Positions 1 through 17,978 of a stretch of DNA of 18,061 nt are shown here, one piece after another; position 1 is the first letter of the stretch; each line of letters starts with the position of its first letter. The stretch spans positions 1 through 18,061 of the forward strand of contig CAMLSD010000095.1 of assembly GCA_946482595.1 (NCBI GenBank). The letters are read 5' to 3'. The notes beneath the pieces were generated by a model that was not told the DNA's origin, searched no databases, and saw only the letters and a program-made list of their open reading frames with translations. Source of the DNA: an uncultured Comamonadaceae bacterium (lineage in GTDB: Bacteria > Pseudomonadota > Gammaproteobacteria > Burkholderiales > Burkholderiaceae). The position numbers were made by a program, and so were the translations under genes.

Positions 1-10
1 AAGCGGACAA

Positions 11-36
11 GGCAAGGCCACCTGCGTGGCCTTGCC
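11..36. repeat. Perfect 11-bp inverted repeat (hairpin)
   Basis: Arms GGCAAGGCCAC (11-21) and GTGGCCTTGCC (26-36) are exact reverse complements around a 4-base loop CTGC. A weaker hairpin, CTTGGC (50-55) with GCCAAG (62-67), follows. No T-run follows on either strand, so a terminator role is not supported. It is probably part of an intergenic palindromic element cut by the window edge. Confidence 0.7.
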
Positions 37-117
37 CCGCTGGAGCCGGCTTGGCCTGCAAGCCAAGTCGTGGACCGAGTTTGCCCCCTTCCCGCCCGGA
101 CCGAGCAGCGCAAGGGA

Positions 118-137
118 GTTTCCGTGCCGACGGAAAC
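118..137. repeat. Perfect 8-bp inverted repeat (hairpin)
   Basis: Arms GTTTCCGT (118-125) and ACGGAAAC (130-137) are exact reverse complements around loop GCCG. It sits in the same non-coding block as the 11-36 hairpin and the dispersed repeat at 236-305. There is no T-tract and no adjacent gene start, so its function is unknown. Confidence 0.6.
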
Positions 138-235
138 CGAGCACTCCGGTGTGGCCTTTTCTTTGGTTCCTCTATTTTGGCCACGCAAAAGAAAGGGACT
201 CGCCCGCCGGGGCGAACTCCCGGCTCGCCCCGCCA

Positions 236-305
236 GGGGCGAAACACAGCGCCACCCGGCACAGCCGCGCCACGCCACAGCACACCCTCTCCCCAATCCT
301 CTAAC
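236..305 (+). repeat. Dispersed composite repeat, left copy
   Basis: This 70-base block begins GGGGCGAAACACAGCGCCAC and ends with CCTCTCCCCAATCCTCTAAC. It aligns without gaps to the minus strand of 9881-9950, with about 58 of 70 positions identical by hand count. It is preceded by a TCGCCCC/GGGGCGA hairpin (225-242), as the other copy is preceded by a longer form of the same hairpin. The palindromic CCCTCTCCCGC end seen in the right copy is degenerate here. Confidence 0.8.
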
Positions 306-391
306 GGCGCCACAAAACGACATCGAAGCGACTCGAAGCACACCCATCCCGTTCACAAAAGCGAAGGGATCGACCCGCTGCGACCGACCCC

Positions 392-2221
392 TCAAGCTGC
401 GCGCGGCACCAGTGTCAGGCGTGCAGTCACCGCGGCTGCGCCCGGCTCGCGCACGCAGGCCACCCAATGCCCCTCGCCCACCTCCACCATCTCGGGCGCG
501 CCTGCAACGGGCACGCCGGCGTCGAACCACTCACGGCCCTCGATCGCCTGGGGCCCGATCATCTGCCGATGCCTGAGACGAAAGCCTGCGTCGCCCAGCG
601 GTTCCAGCCGGGGGGCCGCGGCCAGCAAGGCGCGCGTGTACGGATGGGCCGGACGATCGAACAGGGCATCGCGCGGCGCCAGTTCAACCACGTGGCCTCG
701 ATGCATCACCGCCACACGGTCGGCGATGCTCTCGACCACCCCCAGGTCGTGCGACACGAACAGACAGGCAAACCCATGCCGTGCCTGCAGCTGACGCAAC
801 AGATCGAGCACCTGCTTCTGCACGGTGGCATCGAGCGCCGACACCGGCTCGTCGGCCACGACCACCTGCGGCCCGGGAATCACGGCGCGCGCGATCGCCA
901 CGCGCTGGCGCTGTCCGCCCGAAATCTGGTGCGGCAGGCGGTCGGCCAGCTCGGCGGGCAAGCCCGCTTCCTGCAGCAGCGCCAGCGCACGACGGCGGCG
1001 TTCGGCGGCATCCAGGCGGCGGTCGTGCCGCAGCGGCTCGGCCACGATGTCGACCAGCCGCATGCGCGGGTCGAGCGAGGAGTACGGGTCCTGGAACACG
1101 ATCTGCACGGCGCGCTGAAAGCGCATGCGCCGCGCCCGGTCGAAGGTGGCGACGTCCTCGCCCTCGAACAGCAGGCTGCCGCCGCTGGGCCGCGCCAGCT
1201 GGGTGAGCACCCGCGCCACGGTCGTCTTGCCCGAACCCGACTCGCCGACCACGGCCAGCGTCTCGTGGGCATGCAGGGCCAGGCTCACGCCTTTGACCGC
1301 ATCGACCGGTGCGGCCTTGCGAAACCACTGGCGCGGCCCGGCAAAGCTCACCCGCAGATGGCTGGTCTCGACCACCGGCCGGCCGGTGGGCAGGCTGCGT
1401 GCGGGCTGGCGCGACGGCAGCGCGTCGAGCAGCCGGCGCGTGTAGGCCTCACGCGGACGCAGCAGGATGTCTTCGGTGCGTCCCGACTCGATCACGCGGC
1501 CGGCCTGCATCACCACCACACGGGTGGCGCGTTCGGCGACCAGGGCCAGGTCATGGCTGATCATCAGCACGGCCGTACCCGAGGCCTGTGTCAGCTCGCC
1601 CATCAGGTCGAGCACCTCGCGTTGCACCAGCATGTCCAGCGCCGTGGTGGGCTCGTCGGCGATCAGCAGCCGGGGCCGCGGCAGCATCACCGAGGCCAGC
1701 ATGATGCGCTGACGCATCCCGCCCGAGAACTCGTGCGGGTAGGCCTGCAGGCAGCGCAGTGGGTCGGCCACCTTCACCCGGCGCAGCATCTCGATGCACC
1801 GCTCGCGGATCTCGCGTTCGCCAAGACGGGTGTGCAGGCGCAGCGCCTCGGCCATCTGGTCGCCGATGCGCAGCGCCGGGTTCAGCGACACCAGCGGCTC
1901 CTGGAAGACCATGCCGATGCGTGCGCCACGCACCTCGCGCCATTGCGCGGGGGTCAGGCCCGCCATCGAGCGCCCTTCGAAGCGGATGTCGCCTCCCGCC
2001 ACACGGGCACCGTCGGGCAGCAGCCCCAGCACGGCACGTGCGGTGAGGCTCTTGCCGCTGCCCGACTCGCCCACGATGGCCACCACTTCACCGGCGGCCA
2101 CCTCGACACTGGCGCCGCAGACCGCGGGCCGGCCTTCGCCGAAGACCACATCCAGGCGCTCGATGTTCAGCAGGGCGGCGCCCGGTTCATTCACGGACTC
2201 GTTCATCGGATTCACGTTCAT
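392..2221 (-). CDS. Dipeptide/oligopeptide ABC transporter, fused double ATPase subunit
   Basis: This 609-residue protein has two complete ABC ATPase domains in one chain, like GsiA or a DppD-DppF fusion. It powers uptake through the two permeases encoded just upstream. Domain 1 has Walker A GESGSGKS (51-58), signature FSGGMRQR (165-172), Walker B LLIADEPTTALD (185-196) and switch His223. Domain 2 has Walker A GESGSGKT (326-333), signature ISGGQRQR (433-440), Walker B VVVADEPVSALD (453-464) and His491. The GHWVAC stretch near 584-589 looks like the end of the C-terminal oligo/dipeptide-transporter (oligo_HPY) region. The start is the ATG at 2221, which overlaps the permease stop as ATGA and implies translational coupling. 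The frame stays open to 2953, but that part only shadows the permease. Function class is certain; the substrate is inferred from the operon. Confidence 0.95.
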   Translation of the reverse strand: MNVNPMNESVNEPGAALLNIERLDVVFGEGRPAVCGASVEVAAGEVVAIVGESGSGKSLTARAVLGLLPDGARVAGGDIRFEGRSMAGLTPAQWREVRGARIGMVFQEPLVSLNPALRIGDQMAEALRLHTRLGEREIRERCIEMLRRVKVADPLRCLQAYPHEFSGGMRQRIMLASVMLPRPRLLIADEPTTALDMLVQREVLDLMGELTQASGTAVLMISHDLALVAERATRVVVMQAGRVIESGRTEDILLRPREAYTRRLLDALPSRQPARSLPTGRPVVETSHLRVSFAGPRQWFRKAAPVDAVKGVSLALHAHETLAVVGESGSGKTTVARVLTQLARPSGGSLLFEGEDVATFDRARRMRFQRAVQIVFQDPYSSLDPRMRLVDIVAEPLRHDRRLDAAERRRRALALLQEAGLPAELADRLPHQISGGQRQRVAIARAVIPGPQVVVADEPVSALDATVQKQVLDLLRQLQARHGFACLFVSHDLGVVESIADRVAVMHRGHVVELAPRDALFDRPAHPYTRALLAAAPRLEPLGDAGFRLRHRQMIGPQAIEGREWFDAGVPVAGAPEMVEVGEGHWVACVREPGAAAVTARLTLVPRAA

Positions 2222-3051
2222 TGCCCCTGCATGCGAGGATCGGCCCAGTCGCGCACCGCGTCGCCGAACAGGTTGACACCCAGCAGCGCCACCGAAATGC
2301 ACAACCCCGGCAGCACGCCAAGCCACGGGGCCTCCTCGATGGTTGCCCGGCTGTCGGCAAGCATGCCGCCCCAGCTCGGTGCCGGCGGCGGCACGCCCAG
2401 CCCCAGGAAGCTCAGCGCACTCTCGGACAGCAGCACCCAGCCGAACATCGAGGTCGTCAGCACCGTCAGCGGCGGCACGCAAGCCGGCAGCACGTGGCGC
2501 ACCAGCGTGTACAGCCCGGAGTTGCCCATGGTGCGCGAGGCCTCGACGTACTCTTTCTCGCGGATCGACAGCACGCTGCCACGCACCACACGCACAACCG
2601 ACGGCAGGAAGGCCAGCGCCAGCGCCATCACCACGCCCCAGCGGCTCGGCCCGAACGTGGCGATGATCGCCAGCGCGAACAGCAGTCCGGGAAAGGCCAG
2701 CAGCACGTCGTTGAACGCCATGAACACGGTGTCGAACCAGCCGCGGGCATAGCCGGTCAGCGTGCCCAGCACCGCCCCGGCCGTCACCGCCAGCAGCACC
2801 GTGACCACACTGACCGACACGCTCGTGGCCGCACCGGCCAGCAGGCGGCTGAGCACGTCGCGGCCCAGGTCGTCGGTCCCCAGCCAGTGCTGGGCGGAAG
2901 GCGCCGCCATGCGGGCCATGAAATCGGGGGCATTGGGGTCGGCCGGCTGCCACACGCTGCCGACCAGGGCCGCGGCCATGACAAGCGCCAGCAACACGCC
3001 GCCCACCACCGCATTGGGGCGCCGCCGCAGCAGACGCGCAAGACGGGACAT
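2218..3051 (-). CDS. ABC transporter permease, DppC/GsiD type
   Basis: This inner-membrane permease has about 277 residues and several hydrophobic segments. It shows the DppC-family hallmark HWLGTDDLGRDVLSRLLAGA after the first transmembrane helix. The cytoplasmic EAA-type loop, around EYVEASRTMGNSGLYTLVRHVLP, docks onto the ATPase; near the end come ALSFLGLGVPPPAPSWGGM and a C-terminal DPRM. It would pair with the DppB-type permease encoded directly upstream. I chose the ATG at 3051. A GTG at 3060 is equally possible: it overlaps the upstream stop as GTGA and adds three residues. The stop overlaps the ATPase start by four bases. Confidence 0.93.
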   Translation of the reverse strand: MSRLARLLRRRPNAVVGGVLLALVMAAALVGSVWQPADPNAPDFMARMAAPSAQHWLGTDDLGRDVLSRLLAGAATSVSVSVVTVLLAVTAGAVLGTLTGYARGWFDTVFMAFNDVLLAFPGLLFALAIIATFGPSRWGVVMALALAFLPSVVRVVRGSVLSIREKEYVEASRTMGNSGLYTLVRHVLPACVPPLTVLTTSMFGWVLLSESALSFLGLGVPPPAPSWGGMLADSRATIEEAPWLGVLPGLCISVALLGVNLFGDAVRDWADPRMQGQ

Positions 3052-3056
3052 GGTTT

Positions 3057-3998
3057 TCACAAGGTCACCCGCGGGTCGAAGAGAGGATAGGCGAGGTCCA
3101 CCACCAGGTTGACCACGGCATAGACGAAGGCGATGAACATCAGGCAGCCCTGGATGACGGGGTAGTCGCGCGCATAGATCGCATCGACCAGCAGACGGCC
3201 CAGTCCGGGCAACGTGAACACGGTCTCGACCACGGCCGCACCGCCCAGCAGATTGCCCAGGATGAGGCCGATCAGCGTCCAGGTGGGCGCAAACGCGTTG
3301 GGCAGGGCATGGCGGAACAGCACCGAGCGCTCGCTTGCGCCCTTGGCGCGGGCATGGGTGATGTACTCGAGCCGCAGGACATCCACCGTGCTGGCCCGGG
3401 CCATGCGCGCGATGGTGCCGGTCTCGACCAGCACCAGCGTGAGCACCGGCAGCGCCATGACCTGCAGGGCGGCCCAGGCGTCCTCGCCAAAGGGCACATA
3501 GCCCACCACGGGCACCCACTGCAGCACCATGCCGAACACCAGCAGCAGCATCAGGCCCAGCCAGAAGCTCGGGATGGACAGCAGTGCCGTCGACAGCCCC
3601 ACCACCGCCAGGTCCGGCCAGCGGTTCTGGCGCCATGCAGCCAGCAACCCCAGCGGCACGGCCAGCACAGCGGCCAGGCCCACGGCCACCAGCACGATCA
3701 GCGCGGTGACCTGGAAGCGGTCCCAGATCAGGGCCGCCACGGGCAGTTGCGTCGAGATCGACAGGCCGAACTCCCCTGTGACCATCTGCGCCAGCCAGCG
3801 ACCGAACTGCACCGCCACCGGCTGATCCAGGCCGAGCCGCTGGCGCAGGTCCGCCACGGCGGCGGGGTTGTCGACATCACCCAGCAGGATCTGGACCGGG
3901 TCGCCGGGGATCGACCGGATCAGCACGAACACGATCACGCTGACCATCAGCAGCGACAGCAGCGCCATCGCCACACGCTTGAGCAGAAAGTGGAGCAT
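3057..3998 (-). CDS. ABC transporter permease, DppB/GsiC type
   Basis: This 313-residue protein opens with the DppB-family N-terminus (LLKRVAMALLSLLMVSVIVFVLIRSIPGDPV), a first membrane helix followed by the conserved PGDP turn. The large periplasmic loop contains LRQRLGLDQPVAVQFGRWL. The EAA loop, starting EYITHARAKGASERSVLFRH, spans about residues 211-240, followed by ETVFTLPGLGRLL (258-270). It forms the transmembrane channel with the DppC-type partner. The start lies nine bases after the stop of the binding-protein gene and the end abuts or overlaps the next permease, so all four transporter parts are co-transcribed. Confidence 0.95.
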   Translation of the reverse strand: MLHFLLKRVAMALLSLLMVSVIVFVLIRSIPGDPVQILLGDVDNPAAVADLRQRLGLDQPVAVQFGRWLAQMVTGEFGLSISTQLPVAALIWDRFQVTALIVLVAVGLAAVLAVPLGLLAAWRQNRWPDLAVVGLSTALLSIPSFWLGLMLLLVFGMVLQWVPVVGYVPFGEDAWAALQVMALPVLTLVLVETGTIARMARASTVDVLRLEYITHARAKGASERSVLFRHALPNAFAPTWTLIGLILGNLLGGAAVVETVFTLPGLGRLLVDAIYARDYPVIQGCLMFIAFVYAVVNLVVDLAYPLFDPRVTL

Positions 3999-4007
3999 GG
4001 CAGCGAC

Positions 4008-5585
4008 TCAGGGGGTGGCCAGCTTCACGCCCCACAGCCTTTCCTTGCCGGCGGCCCATGACTTGTAGCCGCTGACACGCTGGGTGTGCGCAAATTCGTC
4101 GGTCGAGTTGAACAGCATCACCAGCGGCACGTCCTCGAGCATCATGCGGTGCAGTCGGTCGAAGATGGCCTGGCGCTGCGGACGCTCGGCCACCTTGAAG
4201 CTCTCGTCGAGCAGGGCCAGCGCCTGCGGGTTGTCCCAGACCTTGCGCGGCTGGGTGTCCTTGGGGCCGGCCATCGATTCGAAAGCCAGTGCCGGGTCCA
4301 GGCGTGCCGAGTAGCCGAAGGCCATCACCTGGTACTGCCCCTTGGTGTATCGCTCGAGCTGCGCGCCCCACTCCAGCACCTCCAGCTCCAGGTTCAGCCC
4401 GGCCTGCCTGGCCATGGCCTGCGCGATCAGCGCGGCGTTGTACATGTCCCCGTAGCGCTTGTTGGTCATCAGCTTGATGGGTGCGCCGGCATAGCCTGCT
4501 TCCTTGAGCAGGGCACGTGCGCGCTCGACGTCGGTCTTGTGGCCCTCCCGCTGCACGGCACCGTAGTAGGCGCTGGTCTTGGGCACGATGGATGCGTTGG
4601 CGGGCGCAGCATCACCCGTGACGACCTTGACCAGCTGGTCCACGTCGATCGCCAGGGCCAGCGCGCGGCGGATGCGCACATCCTTGAGCACGGGGTCGCG
4701 TGTCTGCAGCAGCAGGGTCGTGGTCGAGTTCGTCAGGTGCCCGCCCAGCACGATGCCGGGCTTGCGGGCCAGGTCCTGGCGCGACTCGCGGCTCAGGTAG
4801 GGCAGTACGTCGACATCGCCACGCTGCAAGGCGGCCTTGGCCACCGCCTCGTCCGGGATGAAGACAAACCGCACCCCGTCCACGTGCACCGTCTTGTTGC
4901 CGGTGTAGCCATCGCGCTCGCCGTCGCGCGGCTTGTAGTCGGCGAACCGCTTGAGCTCGATGTACTGCCCGCGCCGCCAGTCCCGGATGGTGAAGGGCCC
5001 GGTGGCCACCGGCGCCTTCCATGAGCCGTCGGCATTGATCGAATCGCGGTGCAGGATCGCGCCGCCGCCGCACTGCACGGCCGCCATCTCGGTCAGGAAC
5101 ATGGCATTCGGTACGCTGAGGCGGAAGTCCACGGTACGCGCATCGCGTGCCACCACGTCCTCGATCTTGCTGCGGCCGCGGCCGTCGAACTGCGACAGGC
5201 ACTGCCAGCCAGTGGCCGGGTCGAGGTAGCGCTTCCAGGTCCAGACCACATCAGCGGCCGTGAGCAGCGCGCCGTTGTGGAACTTCACGTCGGGCCGCAG
5301 CGTGAAGGTGTAGCCCAGGCCGTCGCGCGAGACCTCGACCTTGTCGGCCAGCATCGGGCCGACCGATCCGTCCTCGCGATGCGCCACCAGACCTTCGACC
5401 AGGTGCTGCAGCACGGTGTCCGAATTGCTGTCGCGGTTGACACCGGGGTTGACCCCGCGGATGTCGGCATTCATGGCCACGCGGATCACGTTGCCGGTGT
5501 CGGTCTGGGCCAGGGCCGGGCCGGTGGCGCCGATCCACAGGGCCGCCAGGCCGGTGACAGCCCGCGAGATGGAGGGATGGGTCAT
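4008..5585 (-). CDS. Periplasmic peptide-type substrate-binding protein (SBP family 5)
   Basis: This 525-residue solute-binding protein should deliver substrate to the permease pair. The N-terminus is a Sec signal peptide: a hydrophobic stretch ending in GPALA, with probable cleavage before QTDTG at about residue 26. The mature part has the family-5 pattern: VLQHLVEGLVA near the N-terminus, LADKVEVSRDGLGYTFTLRPDVKFHNG, then LTAADVVWTWKRYLDP, and later VLKDVRIRRALALAIDVDQL. The ATG at 5585 has a good AGGAG ribosome site about seven bases upstream. The frame extends 27 codons further to 5666, but that part lacks signal-peptide character and overlaps the upstream gene. Family members bind peptides, but also opines, nickel or glutathione, so the ligand must be inferred from the neighbours. 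Confidence 0.94.
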   Translation of the reverse strand: MTHPSISRAVTGLAALWIGATGPALAQTDTGNVIRVAMNADIRGVNPGVNRDSNSDTVLQHLVEGLVAHREDGSVGPMLADKVEVSRDGLGYTFTLRPDVKFHNGALLTAADVVWTWKRYLDPATGWQCLSQFDGRGRSKIEDVVARDARTVDFRLSVPNAMFLTEMAAVQCGGGAILHRDSINADGSWKAPVATGPFTIRDWRRGQYIELKRFADYKPRDGERDGYTGNKTVHVDGVRFVFIPDEAVAKAALQRGDVDVLPYLSRESRQDLARKPGIVLGGHLTNSTTTLLLQTRDPVLKDVRIRRALALAIDVDQLVKVVTGDAAPANASIVPKTSAYYGAVQREGHKTDVERARALLKEAGYAGAPIKLMTNKRYGDMYNAALIAQAMARQAGLNLELEVLEWGAQLERYTKGQYQVMAFGYSARLDPALAFESMAGPKDTQPRKVWDNPQALALLDESFKVAERPQRQAIFDRLHRMMLEDVPLVMLFNSTDEFAHTQRVSGYKSWAAGKERLWGVKLATP

Positions 5586-5611
5586 GGTGTGTCTCCTGCC
5601 GGATATGGGAC

Positions 5612-6721
5612 TTACAGCGTGTATTCGGTGTAGCGGTGCTCGGCGAACGGTGTGGGCGCAATCCACATGCGGCGCGCGGCGGGCTCCATCACGATGGTGG
5701 CCACGGTGGCCGAGGTGGCCCCGCCGGGCCCGGCGCTCGGGCTGCGGCAGACGGCACGCGGCGCACCGAAACGATCGGACAGCGCCGCGATCACGTCCTC
5801 GCGGGTGATGCTTCCTCCACGCGCCAGCTGCGCCTGCAGGGCCTGCGTGACGCGGCGGTCGCGATACAGCGAGTCGGGCGAGGTCTCCAGGCTGCGGTCA
5901 TGCACCCGCGCCAGCGCGCCGGGGGTCTTGAAGTGGTTGGCATGCACGATCAGGCCGTGTTCGGGCATCTGCCAGAAGACCTCGCCCGGGCAGGTCTCCA
6001 GGCTCACGGCCTCGCCCTGTGCATCACTCACGATGATGTTGTTGGACACCGTGCGTTCGCTGCGGAACACCACCGACAGTGCCTGGGCAAGGAGGGTCGA
6101 CTTCAGGATGGCCCGACGGATCAGCGGCAGCGGCACGCCCGCGCGGCTGCCGTCCTGCGCCGACTTGAGGAAGTTCCCGGTGGTGGCGATGCCATGCTCG
6201 TTGAAGCCCGCGCGTGCCAGCATGCCCGCCTCGACGAAGGTCAGCATGGCCGGGCCGTCGGCAGGCCGCACACGCAGAACCACACCCAGCGCGGCACTCT
6301 CGACACGCCAGTCCCAGTTCTGCGCATGGATCAGCCGTCCATCGCGGCTGGCCTCGGGCAGCACCACGACACCGGTGCAGCCGTCCGGCGGTTCCGTGGC
6401 ACTGAGCCTGTCGTGCGCATAGAGCAGTTCGCTGCGCGCATTGAGCGCCACGATGTCCTCGACTGGCACCTCGGCGCCGCGCGCGACCCCTTCGATCTCG
6501 GCCAGCGAGCCGGGGTCATAGGCGGCGATGCGCGGGACGAATTGCGCGGCCAGCACACGGGTGCGGGCCCAGTCGAGGCCGACCTTCTCGTACGCGGCAC
6601 GGTAGGTGGCCAGGCTTTGGGCGATGCGCTCTCCGGCCAGGCGACCGTACTGGTGGCCACAATCGGCCGGGCTGCCTTCCAGATCGATCAGCGGAAAGGC
6701 GTCAGGGGCTTGCAGACTCAT
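5612..6721 (-). CDS. C45-family Ntn-hydrolase (penicillin acyltransferase-like amidase)
   Basis: The protein has about 369 residues and resembles acyl-CoA:6-aminopenicillanic acid acyltransferase (IAT). These enzymes cut themselves at a Gly-Cys bond and use the freed Cys as nucleophile on amides. The key motif is DGCTG, with the predicted cleavage between Gly114 and Cys115, followed by AQNWDW with Asp137. Fungal IAT has the same arrangement (DGCT, then QNWD with its catalytic Asp). Other family-like parts are NARSELLYA before the cut, SNNIIVSDAQGEAVSLE (a candidate oxyanion-Asn region) and HANHF. No signal peptide is visible, so it should act in the cytoplasm. It sits between the dehydrogenase and transporter genes, suggesting it splits an imported amide. 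I chose ATG 6721 because it matches the usual family N-terminus; ATG 6742, overlapping the upstream stop, would add seven residues. Confidence 0.9.
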   Translation of the reverse strand: MSLQAPDAFPLIDLEGSPADCGHQYGRLAGERIAQSLATYRAAYEKVGLDWARTRVLAAQFVPRIAAYDPGSLAEIEGVARGAEVPVEDIVALNARSELLYAHDRLSATEPPDGCTGVVVLPEASRDGRLIHAQNWDWRVESAALGVVLRVRPADGPAMLTFVEAGMLARAGFNEHGIATTGNFLKSAQDGSRAGVPLPLIRRAILKSTLLAQALSVVFRSERTVSNNIIVSDAQGEAVSLETCPGEVFWQMPEHGLIVHANHFKTPGALARVHDRSLETSPDSLYRDRRVTQALQAQLARGGSITREDVIAALSDRFGAPRAVCRSPSAGPGGATSATVATIVMEPAARRMWIAPTPFAEHRYTEYTL

Positions 6722-6735
6722 GATGGGCTCGGTTC

Positions 6736-8211
6736 TCAGCATTGGTGAACGAACTTGGTGGTGAGGTAGCTGTCCAGGCCCTCGATGCCTCCCTCACTGC
6801 CGTAGCCGCTTTCCTTCACGCCCCCAAAGGGCGTTTCCGGCGACGACACGGCAAAGGCATTGAAGGACAACATGCCCGTCTCCAGCTCGTTGGACAGGCG
6901 CAGCATCGCACGTGCATCGTGCGTGAAGGCATAGGCCGCCAGGCCGTAAGGCAGACGGTTTGCCTCGACGATCGCATCCTCGATGCGATCAAATGGCGCA
7001 ATGGTGGCCACCGGACCGAACGGCTCCTCATTGAGCAGGGCGCAATGCATGTCAGCTTCGGTGACGACGGTCGGTGCGTGGAACCAACCTTCGGACTCCA
7101 GCCGGTTGCCGCCGAACAGCACGCGCGCACCGCGCCCGCGCGCATCAGCCACGAGGCGTTCGACCGCGGCCAGCCGGCGCGGATTGGCCAGCGGCCCCAT
7201 CTGCGACGTCGACAGTGCACCATCGCCCACACGCAGATTGCGCGCGACGTCGACATACGCATCCACGAAGCGTCGGTACAGCCCGCGCGCCACCAGGAAG
7301 CGTGTGGGAGACACGCAGATCTGGCCGGCATTGCGATGCTTGGTCTGAGCGGACAGCCGGGCGGCCGCGATGGCGTCGGCATCGTCGAGCACCAGCACTG
7401 GCGCATGCCCGCCCAGCTCCATCGTGAGCCGCTTGACGCCGCCGGCCGCCAGCGCCGCCATCTGCTTGCCCACCGCCGTCGACCCGGTGAACGACAGCTT
7501 GCGGATCACGGGTGAAGCCACCAGCCGGGCCGACACCTCGGCCGGGTCGCCCATCACCACCTGCAGCACACCGGCCGGCAGGCCGGACTCCTCCAGGGCC
7601 TGGGCCAGATACAGGCAGGCACTGGGCGTTTCTTCGGACGGCTTGATGATGCACACGCAGCCCGCAGCCAGGGCACCCGCCACCTTGCGCGCCGGTGTGA
7701 CGACCGGGAAGTTCCATGGCGTGAAGGCCGCCACCGGGCCAACGGGTTCACGCAGCACCGTCATGCGGTGGCGGGGGTCACCGGGCACCACCCGGCCATA
7801 GGCCCGACGGCCTTCTTCGGCATACCACTCGAACACCTCGACCGCACGGGCCACTTCACTGCGCGCCTCGGCCAGCAGCTTGCCCTGCTCGGCCGTGATG
7901 GCCTGCGCGATGGCGTCACTGCGAGACTCGACCCACAGTGCCGCGCGGCGCAGCACGCGCGAGCGGTCCAGCGGCGCGGTGGCACGCCAGGCGGGCTGAG
8001 CCTTCGCGGCGGCACACAGGGCCTCGTCGAGGTCGTCGACACTGGCATGCTGCACACGGCCGATCGGCACGGCCGCCGCCGGGGTCCAGACCACGGTGTG
8101 ACCCGCGCCGCGACCTTCACGCCACACCCCGCCGATCCATTGGCGCAAGCGTCGGCCATCCTCGGCCAAGAAGGCGGGCGCCGTCTTCCACGGCATCGCC
8201 GCGGGCGTCAC
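6736..8211 (-). CDS. NAD(P)-dependent aldehyde dehydrogenase, succinate/ketoglutarate semialdehyde type
   Basis: This 491-residue protein has all the catalytic parts of the aldehyde dehydrogenase superfamily: PWNFP with Asn167, cofactor-binding KPSEETP with Lys190, FTGSTAVGK (241-249), general base Glu265 in MELGG, nucleophile Cys299 in NAGQICVSPTRF, and EEPFGPV with Glu396. The NAGQxCVSPTRF and FGGVKESGYGSEGG signatures resemble succinic and alpha-ketoglutaric semialdehyde dehydrogenases rather than CoA-acylating MmsA enzymes. It would oxidise the semialdehyde made by the upstream transaminase to a dicarboxylate. The GTG start at 8211 overlaps the transaminase stop as GTGA and is preceded by GAGG at about seven bases. 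An internal ATG at 8196 is the alternative. The exact chain length of the substrate cannot be read from the sequence. Confidence 0.93.
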   Translation of the reverse strand: MTPAAMPWKTAPAFLAEDGRRLRQWIGGVWREGRGAGHTVVWTPAAAVPIGRVQHASVDDLDEALCAAAKAQPAWRATAPLDRSRVLRRAALWVESRSDAIAQAITAEQGKLLAEARSEVARAVEVFEWYAEEGRRAYGRVVPGDPRHRMTVLREPVGPVAAFTPWNFPVVTPARKVAGALAAGCVCIIKPSEETPSACLYLAQALEESGLPAGVLQVVMGDPAEVSARLVASPVIRKLSFTGSTAVGKQMAALAAGGVKRLTMELGGHAPVLVLDDADAIAAARLSAQTKHRNAGQICVSPTRFLVARGLYRRFVDAYVDVARNLRVGDGALSTSQMGPLANPRRLAAVERLVADARGRGARVLFGGNRLESEGWFHAPTVVTEADMHCALLNEEPFGPVATIAPFDRIEDAIVEANRLPYGLAAYAFTHDARAMLRLSNELETGMLSFNAFAVSSPETPFGGVKESGYGSEGGIEGLDSYLTTKFVHQC

Positions 8212-9545
8212 GGCTGCACCTCGCGGATGCCGTCAGCCACGGTCTGCACCATGCGATCGACCTGCGCACGTTCGATCACCAGTGGCGGCGACATCACAAT
8301 GGTTTCGCCGACCGCACGCACCAGCACACCACGCTCGAAGGCATGGGCCGCCACGGCCTGCGCATGCGCGCCGACCCGGCTCGGCCAGGACTGCAGTTCG
8401 ATGGCGGCCAGCAAGCCGATGTTGCGGATGTCGACGATGCCGGCCTCACCCTTGAGTGCGTGCACCGCCTGGCCCAGCACCACCCCCTGCTCGGCGGCTC
8501 GCTGCGCCAGCCCTTCGGCCGCATGCACCGCCAGGGTGGCCAGCGCCGCCGCACAGGCCAGCGGGTGACCGGAGTTGGTGTAGCCGTGGGCAAACTCGAC
8601 CGCATCCTCGGCACCATTCATGAAGGCCTGGTGCACATGCTCACGCACGATCACCGCACCCATCGGCACGGCCGCGTTGGTGAGCGCCTTGGCGGTGGTC
8701 ATCAGGTCGGGCACCACGTCGAAGTGGTGGGCCGCAAAGGCATGGCCCAGGCGCCCGAAGCCGGTGATGACCTCGTCAAAGATCAGCAGGATGCCGTGCC
8801 GGTCGCAGATCTCGCGCAGGCGGCGCAGGTAGCCCACCGGCGGCGGCAGCACGCCCGTCGACCCCGCCACCGGCTCGACGATCACGGCCGCCACGGTGGC
8901 GGGGTCATGCAAGGCCAGCAAGGTTTCCAGTGCGTCGGCTCGCTCCACGCCGTGTTCGGGCAGGCCGTGCGAAAACGCATTGCGCTGCAGGTCGTGGGTG
9001 TGCGGAAGATGGTCCACCCCGGGCAGCAGCGGGCCGAAGGCGCTACGGTGCTTGCCGATGCCTCCCACCGACAACCCACCGAAGTTCACGCCGTGGTAAG
9101 AGCGCTCCCGCCCGATGAGCCGGAAGCGCCCGGCCTGTCCACGGGCCCGGTGATAGGCCAGGGCCATCTTGAGCGCCGTGTCGACCGACTCCGAGCCGGA
9201 GTTGGTGAAGAACACATGGTTCATGTCGGCCGGCGCCAACGCCGCCACCTGCTCGGCCAGCCGGAAGGCATCAGGATGCGACAGCGTGAAGCTCGAGGCG
9301 TAGTCCAGCCGGTCGATCTGCGCCTTCATCGCTGCGGCGATGGCCGGGTGGCCGTGGCCCGCATTGACACACCACAGCCCGGCGATGCCGTCCAGGATCT
9401 CGCGGCCCTGGCTGTCGGTGTAGTACATGCCTCGCGCACCGACCAGCATCTGTGGCTGACGCTTGAACTTGCGATTGGGAGTGAACGGCATCCAGTACGC
9501 CTGCAGCGTGGCGGCGTCCGGTTGCGAGTGTGGGGTGGATGGCAT
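8208..9545 (-). CDS. Class III omega-amino acid:pyruvate-type aminotransferase
   Basis: This 445-residue PLP enzyme moves a terminal amino group from an omega-amino acid or amine to a keto acid, giving a semialdehyde. It follows Pseudomonas omega-amino acid:pyruvate transaminase (beta-alanine:pyruvate, BauA-like) closely: YWMPFTPNRKFKRQP near the N-terminus, LWCVNAGHGHP, VFFTNSGSESVDTALKM, YHGVNFGG, VIVEPVAGSTGVLPPP, IFDEVITGFGR with Asp257, and the PLP lysine Lys286 in TTAKALTNAAVPMGAV. Arg410 in VLVRAVGETI aligns with the carboxylate-binding Arg of that family. It is the first gene of the seven-gene operon and overlaps the dehydrogenase by four bases. There is no Shine-Dalgarno sequence before the ATG at 9545, and the start lies in an inverted repeat, which suggests controlled translation. 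BauA-like specificity is likely; GABA, putrescine or taurine substrates remain possible. Confidence 0.93.
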   Translation of the reverse strand: MPSTPHSQPDAATLQAYWMPFTPNRKFKRQPQMLVGARGMYYTDSQGREILDGIAGLWCVNAGHGHPAIAAAMKAQIDRLDYASSFTLSHPDAFRLAEQVAALAPADMNHVFFTNSGSESVDTALKMALAYHRARGQAGRFRLIGRERSYHGVNFGGLSVGGIGKHRSAFGPLLPGVDHLPHTHDLQRNAFSHGLPEHGVERADALETLLALHDPATVAAVIVEPVAGSTGVLPPPVGYLRRLREICDRHGILLIFDEVITGFGRLGHAFAAHHFDVVPDLMTTAKALTNAAVPMGAVIVREHVHQAFMNGAEDAVEFAHGYTNSGHPLACAAALATLAVHAAEGLAQRAAEQGVVLGQAVHALKGEAGIVDIRNIGLLAAIELQSWPSRVGAHAQAVAAHAFERGVLVRAVGETIVMSPPLVIERAQVDRMVQTVADGIREVQP

Positions 9546-9589
9546 CTTCGGTCAGGGGTGAGGCCCACAGGAGGGGCGATGACCGAAGA
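9545..9589 (-). promoter_or_regulatory. Perfect 10-bp inverted repeat enclosing the operon's start codon
   Basis: Plus-strand arms TCTTCGGTCA (9545-9554) and TGACCGAAGA (9580-9589) are exact reverse complements with 25 bases between. In the transcript the downstream arm ends on the A of the aminotransferase ATG, so the hairpin would cover the start codon. It could equally be a protein operator on DNA. The proposed -10 hexamer overlaps the distal arm. Confidence 0.55.
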
Positions 9590-9615
9590 CTATGCGTGTG
9601 CATTGTTTTATTCAA
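9587..9615 (-). promoter_or_regulatory. Candidate sigma-70 promoter for the seven-gene operon
   Basis: On the minus strand, TTGAAT (plus 9610-9615) lies 17 bases before TAGTCT (plus 9587-9592), a fair but imperfect -35/-10 pair. Transcription would start near 9580. This is the only AT-rich stretch upstream of the aminotransferase. An alternative -10-like AATAAT lies a little further upstream. Confidence 0.35.
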
Positions 9616-9655
9616 CGCACAAGAACATTATTTGCAGGGGGCAGAAAACAATGCA
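9599..9655. promoter_or_regulatory. Perfect 11-bp inverted repeat, candidate operator
   Basis: Arms TGCATTGTTTT (9599-9609) and AAAACAATGCA (9645-9655) are exact reverse complements 35 bases apart (46 bases arm to arm). They are AT-rich in a GC-rich genome and flank the candidate -35 hexamer of the aminotransferase operon. This is what a two-site or looping repressor/activator operator looks like. The binding protein is unknown; no regulator gene is adjacent to the operon inside the window. Confidence 0.55.
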
Positions 9656-9688
9656 GGCGCTCGTGGTGGCGCTGCACCCTCTCCCCAA

Positions 9689-9712
9689 CCCTCTCCCGCA
9701 AGCGGGAGAGGG
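9689..9712. repeat. 24-base palindrome, copy 1
   Basis: CCCTCTCCCGC (9689-9699) pairs with GCGGGAGAGGG (9702-9712), with AA at the centre. It is preceded by CCCTCTCCCCAA (9677-9688). Confidence 0.85.
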
Positions 9713-9768
9713 AGCGAACCTCCCGGTGAGCATGTGCGGCGACGCCGATGTGCGTTGCCGGAGTTGCC

Positions 9769-9792
9769 CCCTCTCCCGCTGGCGGGAGAGGG
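9769..9792. repeat. 24-base palindrome, copy 2
   Basis: CCCTCTCCCGC (9769-9779) pairs with GCGGGAGAGGG (9782-9792), with TG at the centre. It is identical to copy 1 apart from the central two bases and starts 80 bases after it. Confidence 0.85.
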
Positions 9793-9865
9793 AGTTGGCG
9801 CACGTGCGGAAGCCGTTGTCCCTGGCACCATGTTTCGAGCCCGATGGGGCGAGGCTCGGCGTACT

Positions 9866-9889
9866 CCCTCTCCCGCTTGCGGGAGAGGG
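9866..9889. repeat. 24-base palindrome, copy 3
   Basis: CCCTCTCCCGC (9866-9876) pairs with GCGGGAGAGGG (9879-9889), with TT at the centre. It is followed by TTGGGGAGAGGG (9890-9901), the mirror image of the flank of copy 1. Confidence 0.85.
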
Positions 9890-9950
9890 TTGGGGAGAGG
9901 GCTGGCGTTGGCGTGGCGCCGTTGTGTTGGGTGGCGCTGTGTTTCGCCCC
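9881..9950 (-). repeat. Dispersed composite repeat, right copy (inverted)
   Basis: The minus strand of this block aligns without gaps to plus 236-305, about 58 of 70 bases by hand count. It begins with the same GGGGCGAAACACAGCGCCAC. It overlaps the end of the MITE-like element, so the two repeat families are joined here. Orientation is opposite to the left copy, and the two copies flank the complete seven-gene operon. Confidence 0.8.
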
Positions 9951-9964
9951 GACAGGGGCGAAAC
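9941..9964. repeat. Perfect 10-bp inverted repeat downstream of phoX
   Basis: GTTTCGCCCC (9941-9950) and GGGGCGAAAC (9955-9964) flank loop GACA. It lies about 47-70 bases past the phoX stop. No T-run follows on the minus strand, so it could protect a 3' end or impede polymerase but is not a standard terminator. The dispersed repeat begins in its left arm. Confidence 0.75.
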
Positions 9965-10010
9965 AAGGGCCGCAAGAACAAGCGCAGAGCGACTCGGAGC
10001 GCACTCCCGC

Positions 10011-12233
10011 TCAGCTACCGATGCGTCCGCCGTCGTTCTTGGTGATCACAACGGTGGCCGAGCGCGGGCGGGCATTGGCACCGCCTGCGCCGTAGCCGGC
10101 GTTGCCGGGCCAGTGGCTGGTGTACTTGCTCGGGTCGCCGATGTCGGCCATCTTCGTGCCCTCGCCCGGGTGCTGGATGTTCACGAACATCGTCTTGCCG
10201 TCGGGCGTTTCGGCCACGCCGGTGATCTCGGAGTCGCGGCAGCCCACCAGGAAGCGCTTGAGCGCTTCGGCCGTCGGCTTCTTGCCGACGTAGGTGTCCA
10301 CGTTCATCACCGAACCATCACCCTTGGTGTAGCTCAGCGTGACCTTGCTGCCATCGCCCTGGGCGCCAGGCAGGCCGGCCAGCATCATGCAGTTGGTGAC
10401 GTCGGTGTAGGCGCCGTCGTCGGTCTGGATCCAGCAGATGCCGGTGTGCGGGCTGAACCACAGGCCGTCGGGGCTGGACATGTCCTGGTCGGCGGTCAGG
10501 CCGGACAGGTTGACCTTGCCGCCATCCGCGCCCGCTTCGGCCGCGAACAGGTAGACGTCCCACTTGAAGCTGGTGGCCGCGCCTTCTGCACCGGCCTCGG
10601 CCAGGCGGATGATGTGGCCGTTGACGTTGCCCGACTGGGTGCTGGCGCCCTTCATGTCGGTATAGGCACGCGGGTTCGGGCCATCGACCATCATCTGCGA
10701 GGCGCTCGACGGTTCCACACGGCGGTTGCTGTTGTTGGTCAGCGTGTAGTAGACGTCGCCGTTCTTGGGGTTGACCGAGCACCACTCGGGGCGGTCCATC
10801 TTGGTGGCGCCCACGGCGTCGGCGGCCAGGCGGGCATTCACCACCACGTCAGCCTGGTTGGCAAAGCTGTAGGCGGCGTAACCGGCAATCGCCGGGTTGG
10901 TGATGCTCAGCTCGATCCACTGGCCGGTGCCGTCGGCATTGAACTTGGCCACGTAGAGCTTGCCGTTGTCGAGGTACTTGTCACCCGTCGTGGAGCGATC
11001 GGTCGGGGTGGCATCGGCCGTGGCCCAGGTGGCGGCCGTCACGAACTTGTACATGTACTCGCCGCGCGAGTCATCGCCCATGTAGACGGCCAGTGGCTTG
11101 CCGGCGGCCGGGCGGCTGAAGCAGGCGCTTTCGTGGGCGAAGCGGCCCAGGGCCGTGCGCTTCTTGGCGGGGCGGGTGCGGTCGTAGGGGTCGATCTCGA
11201 CCACGTAGCCCATGCCGTTCATCTCGTTGCGATAGTCGTCGCTGCCGTCGGCCGAGGTGCCGGTCTTGCTGATGTCCCAGCGGGCGTACTTGTCGTCCGC
11301 GCCGCCGGTTTCCCAGCCGTGACGGCTTGCGGCGCCCTGGGAGCGGCCGTAGCGGTTCAGCGACACGACGCTCTTGTCGCCACGCGCGGCGTTGTCGTTG
11401 GCATTGCGGGTGAAATAGCCGAACCAGTTTTCTTCGCCGGTCAGGAAGGTGCCCCAGGGCGTCTTGCCGGTGCCGCAGTTGTTCAGCGTGCCGCGGGTCT
11501 TGGTGCCGGTGGGCGCGTACTTCGTCACCAGCAGGGCATCGCCACGCGCCGGGCCGTTGATCTCGATCTCGCTCAGGGCCGTGAGGCGGCGGTTGAATGC
11601 CGAGCCCTGGACGTATTCCCAGCGGCCGTTGTTGTTGCGCACTTCGACCGCAGCGATGCCGTGCAGGTCGACTTCCTTGTCCACCTCGGCGGCCGGACGC
11701 GGCAGCGTGCTGGTGCCACCATCGGCATGCACAAAGAATGACGACAGGCGCTCGTCGGTCGTGGCTTCGTGGTTGATCATCAGCACGCCGCGCGAGCTGC
11801 CGTTGGCATCGGGCTTGCCGTCGCTGGCCAGGCCGAAGTACTCCATGCCGTCATGGTGGTCGCCGGAGCGGTTGGCAAAGTCACCGTCGGTGCCGTCGTT
11901 CTTGTAGGCCGCCACACCGGCTGCCAGCGGGTCGCCCAGGGCGATCAGCGGGCGCACCGTGTAGCCGGCCGGCACCGTGACGGTGTCGGCGGTGGTCTTG
12001 GCCACGGCGGCAAAGGCCAGCAGCTTTTCTTCGTCGTCGCTGCTGCCGCCGCAGGCGGTGGTCGCCAGGCTGCCGAACAGTGCCGTGGCGGCCGTGCCGA
12101 CCGTCCCTTGCAGCATGCTGCGGCGGCTCAGCCGGGCCTGCAGCACCGATTCGAAAGCGGGGTTGGCGCTGTTGTTGTGGCTGATCTCGTCCGGATCGAT
12201 CTCATGGACGGGGAAGTCGACTCGCTTGTTCAT
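10011..12233 (-). CDS. phoX: PhoX-family alkaline phosphatase (DUF839), Tat-exported
   Basis: This 740-residue protein matches the PhoX family: calcium- and iron-dependent phosphatases that free phosphate from organic esters outside the cytoplasm. Visible family parts are VLMINHE (150-156), NNCGTGKTPWGTFLTGEENW (251-270), GYVVEIDPYD, ALGRFAHESA (361-370), YMGDDSRGEYMYKFV (384-398), ATKMDRPEW, GDVYYTLTNN, SPDGLWFSPHTG and GVAETPDGKTMFVNIQHPGEG. A twin-arginine signal is present (SRRSMLQG with Arg37-Arg38, then an Ala/Gly-rich hydrophobic core), with Cys61 just after. Residue 266 is Gly where PhoX usually has Cys in TCEEN. The ATG at 12233 has AAGGA eight bases upstream; the frame stays open to 12524 but would cross the iclR stop. 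A Pho box lies upstream. DUF839 proteins are diverse, so phosphatase activity is probable but not certain. Confidence 0.9.
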   Translation of the reverse strand: MNKRVDFPVHEIDPDEISHNNSANPAFESVLQARLSRRSMLQGTVGTAATALFGSLATTACGGSSDDEEKLLAFAAVAKTTADTVTVPAGYTVRPLIALGDPLAAGVAAYKNDGTDGDFANRSGDHHDGMEYFGLASDGKPDANGSSRGVLMINHEATTDERLSSFFVHADGGTSTLPRPAAEVDKEVDLHGIAAVEVRNNNGRWEYVQGSAFNRRLTALSEIEINGPARGDALLVTKYAPTGTKTRGTLNNCGTGKTPWGTFLTGEENWFGYFTRNANDNAARGDKSVVSLNRYGRSQGAASRHGWETGGADDKYARWDISKTGTSADGSDDYRNEMNGMGYVVEIDPYDRTRPAKKRTALGRFAHESACFSRPAAGKPLAVYMGDDSRGEYMYKFVTAATWATADATPTDRSTTGDKYLDNGKLYVAKFNADGTGQWIELSITNPAIAGYAAYSFANQADVVVNARLAADAVGATKMDRPEWCSVNPKNGDVYYTLTNNSNRRVEPSSASQMMVDGPNPRAYTDMKGASTQSGNVNGHIIRLAEAGAEGAATSFKWDVYLFAAEAGADGGKVNLSGLTADQDMSSPDGLWFSPHTGICWIQTDDGAYTDVTNCMMLAGLPGAQGDGSKVTLSYTKGDGSVMNVDTYVGKKPTAEALKRFLVGCRDSEITGVAETPDGKTMFVNIQHPGEGTKMADIGDPSKYTSHWPGNAGYGAGGANARPRSATVVITKNDGGRIGS

Positions 12234-12300
12234 CGTGGGCATCCTTAATACAACGGGGTCAGAAGACCGCGAGAGGTTAGGGATGCCAGATGAAGCCCGC

Positions 12301-12329
12301 GTTACCTTTCCGTGACAGTCGCGTGACGA
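12301..12329 (-). promoter_or_regulatory. Pho box (PhoB site) with three 7-bp units upstream of phoX
   Basis: Reading toward phoX on the minus strand, the units are TCGTCAC (plus 12323-12329), CTGTCAC (12312-12318) and AGGTAAC (12301-12307), each separated by exactly four bases. That is the 11-bp period of PhoB sites, whose consensus unit is CTGTCAT. The middle unit is near perfect and the outer ones are weaker. The site ends 67 bases before the phoX start and lies just after the iclR stop. Confidence 0.65.
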
Positions 12330-12346
12330 TGCCGGGCGCTGCCATG

Positions 12347-13198
12347 TCAGCGCGGTGCGCCGTGCTCCAGGCGGGTGCGCAGTTCGAGCAGTTGCGGCCG
12401 CACGGTCTCGAGCAGGAACTGCGGACTCAGGTGAAACGCCGGGCCGCCGCAGTTGATCGCCATCAGCGAACGCCCGCCTTCGGCACGAAACGCGATCGCA
12501 ATGGCATTGACATCTTTCTGCCATTCACCGAACGAGGTGCACACACCGAGCTCGACCAACTGCTGGCGCGCCGTCTCGATGCCCTGGCGGATGCGCGGCC
12601 ACGCCACCTCGTCCAGCTCGCGGATGCGGTCCATCAGGTCATTGCGTTCGGTGTCCGGGCAGCTCGCCAGATAGGCGCGGCCCATGGCGGTGGTGGCCAG
12701 CGGGATGCGCGAACCCACGTCCAGGCTCAGCGTCAGCGCGCTCTGGCTGCGGCAGTTCTCGACATAGATCATGCTCAGCCGGTCGCGCGTGCCCAGCGAC
12801 ACCATGGCTTGTGCGGCATCGGCCAGTTCCTGCATCAGCGGGCGCGCGAGCTGGCGCACGTCCATGCGCGCGAGCATCGCACTGCCCAGCGACAGCGTGG
12901 CGCTGCCCAGCCGGTAGCGGCCGGTGTCCTCGATGTGGTCGAGGTAGCCCAGCTTGGTGAGCGTGTAGGTGAGCCTGGAGATGGTGGACTTGGGCAGGCC
13001 GCAGCGTCGCGCCAGCTCCTGGTTGCTGAGCATGCGGTCGCTGGAGCGAAAGCTCGCCAGCACCTCCAGGCCACGGGCCAGCGCGGTCACGAAATGGCGG
13101 TCTTCCTTGATGCGGGCGCCGCTCGCGGTGTCGTCGGAGTCATCATCGCTCGGCGCGTCGGACGGGTCGCTGTTCAGGTCACTGTTCAGGTCGTTCAT
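12347..13198 (-). CDS. IclR-family transcriptional regulator
   Basis: This 283-residue regulator has an N-terminal winged helix-turn-helix at about residues 36-98 (FVTALARGLEVLASFRSSD, then LSNQELARRCGLPKSTISRLTYTLTKLGYL). A C-terminal IclR effector-binding domain (about 120-275) carries family elements such as VGSRIPLATTAMGRAYLA and NAIAIAFRAEGGRSLMAINCGGPAF. Such proteins bind small aromatic or aliphatic acids. The first 30 residues are a highly acidic tail rich in Asp and Ser that includes a short sequence duplication. It starts ten bases after the ligase stop, so both are probably co-transcribed, and it may control the ligase gene. A GAGGG sits almost against the ATG at 13198, closer than usual. 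Confidence 0.9.
   Translation of the reverse strand: MNDLNSDLNSDPSDAPSDDDSDDTASGARIKEDRHFVTALARGLEVLASFRSSDRMLSNQELARRCGLPKSTISRLTYTLTKLGYLDHIEDTGRYRLGSATLSLGSAMLARMDVRQLARPLMQELADAAQAMVSLGTRDRLSMIYVENCRSQSALTLSLDVGSRIPLATTAMGRAYLASCPDTERNDLMDRIRELDEVAWPRIRQGIETARQQLVELGVCTSFGEWQKDVNAIAIAFRAEGGRSLMAINCGGPAFHLSPQFLLETVRPQLLELRTRLEHGAPR
13166..13189. repeat. Tandem 12-bp duplication inside the iclR N-terminus
   Basis: Two adjacent units, GTCGCTGTTCAG (13166-13177) and GTCACTGTTCAG (13178-13189), differ by one base. They encode the repeated Asp-Leu-Asn-Ser pattern at residues 3-10 of the IclR protein. The repeat is in frame, so copy changes would lengthen or shorten the acidic tail by four residues. 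Confidence 0.75.
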
Positions 13199-13208
13199 GC
13201 CCTCAAGC

Positions 13209-14774: not shown

Positions 14775-14839
14775 CACGGCGGGCAGCGCGGTGGGTGACG
14801 CTTGCGGCACCGTCGCTGCATCTGGGTTGGACTGCGGGG

Positions 14840-14868
14840 ATCGTGGCATGCACCCACCGGAGCGTCAA
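14840..14868 (-). promoter_or_regulatory. Candidate promoter for the ligase-iclR pair
   Basis: On the minus strand TTGACG (plus 14863-14868) is followed after 17 bases by CACGAT (plus 14840-14845). The -35 is strong and the -10 is weak. It would give a leader of roughly 60 bases before ATG 14774 and lies in the 152-base gap after uvrD. Confidence 0.3.
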
Positions 14869-17468: not shown

Positions 17469-17978
17469 ATGCACACCCTGAATCGCCTGACGGCCGTCCT
17501 TGCCACCGTCCTGCTCGGCCTGATGGCCGGCTTCTTCTTCGCGTTTGCCGTGGACGTCGCCCCGGCGATGACCCACCTGGACGGCCCGCACTACGTGACC
17601 ACACAGCAGTGGATCAACAAGGTGGTACGCAATGCAGCCTTCGGCAGCGTGTACTTCGGCGCGGCACTGCTGCCGTTTGTCGTGGCGCTGCTGGCGGCCG
17701 GCCGCCGGCAGTGGCGCTGGGCCCTGGGGTGGGCCATCGTGGCCGGTGCCTATGCCGTGGCGGTGTTTGCGCTGACCAGCTCGGTCAATGTGCCGATCAA
17801 CGAGGCGATGGCCCAGTGGAACCCGGCCACGCCCCCGGCCGACTGGGCCGAGCTGCGTGATGCATGGAACCAGGCGAACCTGACGCGCGCGCTGGCCAGT
17901 GCGGCGTGTTTTGCGGCTGCGGTCGTGCTCATCGCCTGGCCGGCGCCGCACGCCCCGGCCGCAACGTCATCGCCCTGA
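17469..17978 (+). CDS. DUF1772 (anthrone oxygenase-like) membrane protein
   Basis: This 169-residue protein has four predicted membrane helices at about residues 8-30, 58-78, 86-105 and 141-157. It carries the DUF1772 pattern: GLMAGFFFAFAVDVAPAM in the first helix, then ALTSSVNVPINEAMAQW and WAELRDAWNQANLTRALAS before the last helix. The family is named after anthrone oxygenase, but most bacterial members have no known role. It is the only plus-strand gene in the window and is divergent from uvrD. The ATG at 17469 follows a weak GAGCG at about nine bases. The C-terminus is a short Ala/Pro tail. A hairpin with six T's lies 49 bases past its stop. Confidence 0.82.
   Translation: MHTLNRLTAVLATVLLGLMAGFFFAFAVDVAPAMTHLDGPHYVTTQQWINKVVRNAAFGSVYFGAALLPFVVALLAAGRRQWRWALGWAIVAGAYAVAVFALTSSVNVPINEAMAQWNPATPPADWAELRDAWNQANLTRALASAACFAAAVVLIAWPAPHAPAATSSP

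Follow-up and report, generated by a model that had tools for sequence, protein, structure and literature searches.

Among the described pathways, the degradation of caprolactam by Pseudomonas jessenii is, as published, the closest in logic to the locus investigated in this study, as an amide is cleaved to an omega-amino acid there, omega-transamination depends on pyruvate and a dicarboxylate, adipate, is the end product, with all of this encoded in one cluster (PMC6061476). The locus is part of an 18,061-nucleotide stretch of DNA from an uncultured Comamonadaceae bacterium (contig CAMLSD010000095.1; the whole stretch is referred to as the window). On the minus strand of the window, positions 392–9545 contain seven tightly packed genes that, based on the sequence and profile matches, encode in order of transcription an AptA-type aminotransferase, an aldehyde dehydrogenase, a C45 hydrolase, a solute-binding protein, two permeases and a double ATPase. 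An earlier note made from the sequence alone had described a seven-gene operon at this place, and all seven genes were indeed present; their junctions, as read from the sequence, are overlaps of a few bases or gaps of at most 26 bases, depending on the starts chosen. The caprolactam hydrolase is an ATP-dependent, two-subunit relative of 5-oxoprolinase, whereas that of the window is a C45 N-terminal nucleophile (Ntn) hydrolase, and the abstract on the caprolactam pathway names no importer, whereas the window operon has one (PMC6061476). The caprolactam-type two-subunit lactamase family was found in none of the scanned window proteins.

Individual components of the operon also resemble characterized systems. 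Isopenicillin N acyltransferase (IAT) of Penicillium chrysogenum (2x1c/2x1d) is only 25–26% identical to the window C45 protein and belongs to penicillin synthesis, whereas the window protein is bacterial and encoded amid genes for uptake and amino acid metabolism. The beta-alanine:pyruvate aminotransferase of Pseudomonas (4b98) is similar to the window AptA in that Trp58, Lys286 and Arg410 are kept, but the latter falls into a separate, C45-linked clade with Ser84, and it has Val417 and Ser419 in the places of Gln421 and Gly423. DppABCDF of Escherichia coli shares the subunit families and a basic residue on the carboxylate side of the pocket with the window importer; however, the window binding protein lacks Asp436 and has an Arg beside this place, and the window ATPases are fused. 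A pyrimidine-degradation-like cluster on a plasmid of Leisingera aquaemixtae (L117) holds an AptA relative of 55% identity, which adjoins a dihydropyrimidinase and a Zn-dependent hydrolase, a setting of beta-alanine metabolism, while C45 and the importer were not matched in the stretch read. None of the matches listed from the open-access literature described a pathway in which C45 is combined with these partners.

The operon of the window, we estimate with a probability of about 0.6, imports and degrades an N-acylated, i.e., amide-capped, omega-amino acid. It is most likely a catabolic unit in which known families are combined in a new way, marked by its ligand pocket and by a transaminase clade that is dedicated to it. 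The results obtained by computation are the gene content, the conservation of the linkage, the specificity of the clade, the fold and nucleophile of C45 and the residues of the pocket.

The C45 gene is located at 5612..6742, with ATG 6721 as its probable start. Its product passed the curated cut-offs of both PF03417 (66.9 bits, cut-off 23.2) and NF040521 (287.8 bits, cut-off 85) and was IAT-like along its whole length. Cys115 was invariant in all 23 aligned sequences, and residue 115, from which the C45 model aligned, corresponds to the first residue of mature Ntn enzymes. Self-cleavage is predicted between Gly114 and Cys115, of which the Cys codon is at 6379–6377. The closest solved relative was an acyltransferase, and MacQ and acid ceramidase have the same fold. 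The C45 relatives found in this study were named only generically, without a substrate.

Scanning of species genomes with the 23-sequence C45 alignment yielded 490 relatives; the 80 best ones were retained (hereafter the 80 loci). Within 10 kb of C45, an AptA gene (at least 50% identity) was present in 49 of these loci, at least three importer parts in 60 and both in 45; among the 58 loci that were at least 19 kb long, the respective numbers were 42, 51 and 41. Because the 80 loci represent the closest relatives, the count was repeated on a context-blind draw, in which 398 genomes of one phylum and 289 genomes of one class were searched for AptA and C45. With its centre genomes included, this draw contained 26 genomes with a total of 32 different C45 genes, 8 of which had AptA no more than 10 kb away. 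G001 and G006, the two centre genomes, had been chosen for holding C45 and were left out of the final count. AptA was then within 10 kb of 6 of 29 C45 genes from 24 genomes, compared with 0.14 expected (Poisson P ~9e-9; counting three close relatives once reduces the six to 4 and gives ~1.4e-5). Another genome, G876, contained a further C45-AptA pair separated by ~17 kb, and the counts of the draw may be low because few candidates per genome were scored. Neighborhoods were read for 20 of these 32 genes, including one gene from a centre genome. Importer permeases and an ATPase were found in 13 of these, AptA within 10 kb in 3 and at ~17 kb in a fourth; the remaining 12 genes included five with AptA within 10 kb.

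C45 genes with an E value of 1e-60 or better were rare in the family around Variovorax G001 (10 of 399 genomes). In 12 of the 80 loci, the C45 proteins were of 69–75% identity, and 11 of these loci, ten from Variovorax and one from Polaromonas, extended upstream of C45. All 11 contained AptA and the importer; the twelfth (L013), whose sequence begins within C45, contained the importer. Thus, C45 was not missing from this neighborhood in the relatives, which the earlier note had named as a refuting result, and the conservation of C45 with the transaminase and the importer was upheld. The grouping of C45, AptA and the importer recurred across several genera and in several gene orders, and their co-occurrence is beyond chance.

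C45 was also observed in other settings. On a plasmid of the haloarchaeon Halocatena (L145, 8998–18808), genes for C45, a Zn-dependent hydrolase, a class III transaminase and an acylating methylmalonate-semialdehyde dehydrogenase are close together, and the same arrangement of C45, transaminase and dehydrogenase was found in a second strain (L148). This arrangement was dropped as support, as two other haloarchaeal C45 loci did not have it. In Streptomyces cadmiisoli (L149, 2897–10152), C45 follows an importer of a different class, the spermidine/putrescine-type ATP-binding cassette (ABC) importer, and a polysaccharide deacetylase gene. In Shinella (L122, 8983–17307), the genes for one importer and an alpha/beta hydrolase are located between two C45 genes. 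Finally, a Klebsiella pneumoniae plasmid (L125, 7243–15071) carries genes for a GntR regulator, an alpha/beta hydrolase, C45 and the importer, with no match to AptA. As this plasmid is typed as conjugative, the unit may move between hosts.

The first gene of the operon (8208..9545) encodes a class III omega-aminotransferase of the AptA type (NF052567, 672.7 bits, cut-off 500). AptA of Caulobacter, the namesake of this model, is reported to be active on beta-alanine and beta-aminobutyrate (PMC3281772), and the carboxylate site of the Pseudomonas beta-alanine:pyruvate aminotransferase is reported to consist of Gln421, Trp61 and Arg414 (PMC3606037). The window AptA keeps Lys286, the residue for pyridoxal phosphate, as well as Trp58 and Arg410, the counterparts of two of the three site residues. 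It does not match the full Pseudomonas-type site, as Gln421 is replaced by Val417 in a pairwise alignment.

In the final AptA tree, the 30 C45-linked sequences formed one clade with a support of 100/100, and all 29 unlinked sequences were outside of it, so that a single change of state separates the two groups. The linked sequences had been thinned from a larger set, and two of them repeat a genome already included. The unlinked sequences consisted of 13 paralogs from nine C45-holding genomes, of which G003 lacks a linked AptA; 2 sequences from plasmid records; and 14 hand-picked high scorers of the draw, whose genomes either gave no C45 match or had C45 at another place. The draw yielded more than 200 AptA matches, of which the unlinked sequences of the tree are a sample rather than a census. 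Another tree with 52 linked and 15 unlinked sequences gave an identical split. Moreover, position 84 was Ser in all 30 linked sequences, while it was Pro in 27 and Thr in 2 of the 29 unlinked ones. Ser84 is two residues ahead of Phe86, the counterpart of the pocket residue Phe89 in the alignment with the Pseudomonas enzyme. In the stretches around the 13 unlinked paralogs (2.6–8.7 kb on each side), neither C45 nor DppB was found; one contained a Zn-dependent hydrolase gene and one an NCS1 transporter gene. The expectation that unlinked AptA genes are part of pyrimidine clusters, similar to that of Leisingera, was not borne out, as none of the 13 stretches had a dihydropyrimidinase gene. The trees and position 84 indicate that the linked AptA proteins are a transaminase clade dedicated to the C45 unit.

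The importer is encoded by the four genes downstream of C45. They are predicted to encode a family-5 solute-binding protein (4008..5585, PF00496), a DppB-like permease (3057..3998, PF00528 and PF19300), a DppC-like permease (2218 to 3060 with a GTG start or to 3051 with an ATG start, as read from the sequence) and an ATPase with two nucleotide-binding domains (392..2221). The DppC-like permease has PF00528 in the same frame, and OppC_N scored slightly under its cut-off. As the ATPase gene carries two ABC_tran stretches, along with two oligo_HPY stretches, it is read as a fusion of DppD and DppF.

The best solved relative of the binding protein was AgaA (6hlx, E value of 3.2e-43), a kinship that says little about the imported ligand. 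In DppA of E. coli, Arg383 holds the carboxyl end and Asp436 the amino end of a dipeptide, and binding is reported to be lost after double charge reversal by R383D and D436R (PMC12136057). HbpA2 proteins are reported to bind no dipeptides, for which an Arg at the place of the Asp is given as the reason (PMC3295651). DppA of E. coli K-12 was aligned with 63 binding proteins, i.e., that of the window and 62 from C45 loci, one best match per locus. The place of Arg383 was occupied by Lys or Arg in 61 of the 63 proteins. The place of Asp436 was a gap in all 63, and the adjacent residue was Arg in 62. The gap could be shifted by one residue, which puts the Arg at the place of the Asp, and this is what the pairwise alignment does. 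In the window protein, Lys376/Arg377 and Arg428 are found in this ligand region. With either placement of the gap, the pocket is predicted to lack the clamp that would hold a free amino end and to retain the carboxylate side. Because Asp436 is absent and the residue pattern of DppA is thus not matched, the window importer is not considered a dipeptide importer. Its pocket, as judged by these residues, fits a ligand that is blocked at its N-terminus and bears a carboxylate, such as an N-acyl omega-amino acid. The N-acyl omega-amino substrates proposed in the earlier note agree with this pocket, although beta-alanyl, gamma-aminobutyrate (GABA), aminovaleryl and aminohexanoyl compounds are not told apart by it. 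In some clusters (L063, L074, L120 and L171), two or three binding proteins are encoded per permease set, so that one importer may handle more than a single ligand.

The second gene (6736..8211) is accessory. Its product is a semialdehyde-dehydrogenase-like protein of the group of succinate-semialdehyde dehydrogenase (SSADH) and alpha-ketoglutarate-semialdehyde dehydrogenase; it matched PF00171, and its best NCBIfam match, the SSADH model TIGR01780, gave 452 bits, which is under the cut-off of 646.35. Alignments to 5vbf, 5x5t and 3jz4 identified Arg175, Arg293, Cys299 and Ser456, and the two Arg and the Ser align with GabD (3jz4). These three are the carboxylate-binding residues in human SSADH and GabD. 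Both carboxylate-facing Arg residues were kept in the window protein and in all 8 linked homologs. The earlier note had counted the dehydrogenase among the set, of which it proved not to be a constant part. A dehydrogenase gene of at least 45% identity was found within 10 kb of C45 in only 4 of the 80 loci, one of which (L002) has it on the opposite strand, ~3 kb from C45. None of the Variovorax loci showed a homolog, and an SSADH-like gene was missing from the gene run in all 11 near relatives. The full set is present in Tistrella mobilis and Rhizobium etli IE4803, with dehydrogenases that are 49–51% identical to that of the window. Homologs of 51–52% identity were found in 3 of the 20 drawn loci read, and these three loci are closely related to those of Tistrella, L011 and L012; the latter two combine the dehydrogenase with a different class III transaminase, whose family was shown for L012. 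In the tree, in which one sequence labelled as unlinked (L085) is in fact the linked gene of L011, the C45-linked dehydrogenases did not group as a clade, which suggests that the dehydrogenase gene was probably recruited more than once. Given its presence in 4 of the 80 loci and the lack of one clade, the dehydrogenase was rejected as a core member of the unit.

In the proposed pathway, in which each reaction, the sequence of the steps and the class of the substrate are inferred, the binding protein would capture a ligand with a free carboxylate and without a free alpha-amino end, and the DppB/C/DF-like machine would carry it into the cell. C45, self-cleaved before Cys115, would cut the amide in the cytoplasm and release an omega-amino acid, the amine of which would be passed to pyruvate by the transaminase of the AptA clade, yielding alanine and an omega-semialdehyde. 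The semialdehyde dehydrogenase of the window strain would then oxidize the latter to a dicarboxylate, a step that would be optional elsewhere. Uptake is placed first and cleavage in the cytoplasm because the N-terminus of the binding protein is signal-like, while no such N-terminus was seen in the C45 protein (both by eye, without a prediction program). The chain length may lie anywhere between beta-alanine and longer acids, and the SSADH-like dehydrogenase leans weakly to GABA or longer ones.

Several observations weigh against this pathway. The importer and the AptA-like gene were both absent from 15 of the best 80 C45 loci, and no AptA was found within 10 kb of 23 of the 29 drawn C45 genes, so that C45 also functions in other settings. 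A GntR/FCD regulator gene was near C45 in 42 of the 80 loci and often divergent (e.g., L051, 8991–9932), but none was seen in the window. IAT-like enzymes are also capable of acyl transfer. Val417 and Ser419 of the window AptA replace Gln421 and Gly423 of the Pseudomonas enzyme, and its specificity may therefore differ. Family-5 binding proteins that lack the clamp and have other ligands are known, so that the pocket excludes ordinary dipeptides without proving an N-acyl ligand. Finally, Ser456 was kept in the window dehydrogenase and in none of the 8 linked homologs, and this enzyme is optional and of several origins.

The alternative that survives best, although unlikely, is a general scavenging operon for unusual peptides and amides, in which import is mixed, C45 is an interchangeable amide hydrolase and AptA handles one of the products. 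The clusters near C45 contained an amidase gene in 6, an alpha/beta hydrolase-like gene in 16 and a gamma-glutamyltranspeptidase gene in 4 of the 80 loci, based on rough gene calling; the name alpha/beta hydrolase was taken from the records, and the representative of its cluster had no Pfam match. The drawn loci that were read, with the importer in 13 of 20 and AptA within 10 kb in only 3, are also consistent with scavenging. However, the linked AptA genes belong to one dedicated clade, and the conservation of the pocket residues in 61–63 of the 63 binding proteins argues for one class of ligands.

Still less probable is that C45 functions as an acyltransferase or a protective enzyme, for example in the turnover of an amide antibiotic or a signal, while the transaminase and the importer, though encoded on the same transcript, serve an unrelated nitrogen source. 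Such a role would agree with the acyltransferase as the closest solved relative and with the fold shared by MacQ and acid ceramidase, and single neighborhoods contained a gene of the nonribosomal peptide synthetase family (L127) or drug-efflux genes (L121 and L125). Nevertheless, the linkage of C45 to genes for uptake and amino acid metabolism was conserved in several gene orders, and in the neighborhood tables read no biosynthetic or export gene was recurrent beside C45. Pseudomonas fluorescens is the classical source of pantothenase. That C45 is this enzyme, whose product beta-alanine AptA would convert to malonate semialdehyde while pantoate is released, is the least likely explanation: although pantothenate has a free carboxylate and is chemically a beta-alanine blocked at its nitrogen, the protein behind pantothenase was described as unknown in 2023 (PMC10393543), AptA of Caulobacter accepts beta-alanine (PMC3281772) and one unlinked AptA adjoins a dihydropyrimidinase, no pantoate or vitamin gene was recognized in the neighborhood tables read, the window dehydrogenase is SSADH-like instead of the acylating malonate-semialdehyde type, and the pocket of the linked clade differs from those of other AptA proteins.

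Besides the operon, the window contains several other features. An imperfect inverted repeat with 16-nt arms (88%) at 9594..9660, which is ~50–115 bases upstream of the first operon gene, is a possible operator. No match to a sigma-70-type promoter was found in positions 1–10100 of the window. Between the operon and the PhoX gene, positions 9677–9901 contain three near-identical palindromes (CCCTCTCCCGC..GCGGGAGAGGG) that start 80–97 bases apart, and a 38-nt stretch in this region has an inverted copy free of mismatches; the palindromes look like dispersed intergenic repeats. Further upstream on the same strand (10011–14849) are genes for a PhoX-type alkaline phosphatase, an IclR regulator and an AMP-binding ligase. 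Near C45 in the 80 loci, homologs of the IclR regulator (38–39% identity) were found in 6, five of which are from Variovorax, homologs of the ligase in 2 and PhoX in none. A firm link to C45 was thus not seen. These three genes are not counted into the unit. A small plus-strand gene (17469–17978) matches the anthrone oxygenase-like PF08592 and adjoins a UvrD helicase gene. The latter matched Mitsuaria at 80.7% over 2.3 kb, which points to a host from the Burkholderiales. Moreover, a 1267-residue frame without a Pfam match (7938–11741) is antisense to much of the first operon genes and PhoX, which is typical of shadow frames in GC-rich DNA.

Overall, the earlier interpretation of this operon is partly supported. 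That the grouping of C45, AptA and the importer represents an undescribed, widespread pathway for one class of N-acyl omega-amino acids, in which C45 is the missing gene of an orphan amidase with pantothenase as a candidate, appears very unlikely at present. Many soil and plant bacteria possess the importer along with the amidase and the dedicated transaminase. With an importer pocket and a transaminase clade of its own, one branch of the C45 family becomes a testable pathway, the ligand of which is narrowed to an N-blocked carboxylate. If the proposed pathway is true, it may supply the gene for an orphan amidase and would add a way in which soil and plant bacteria obtain nitrogen and carbon from amide-capped amino acids.

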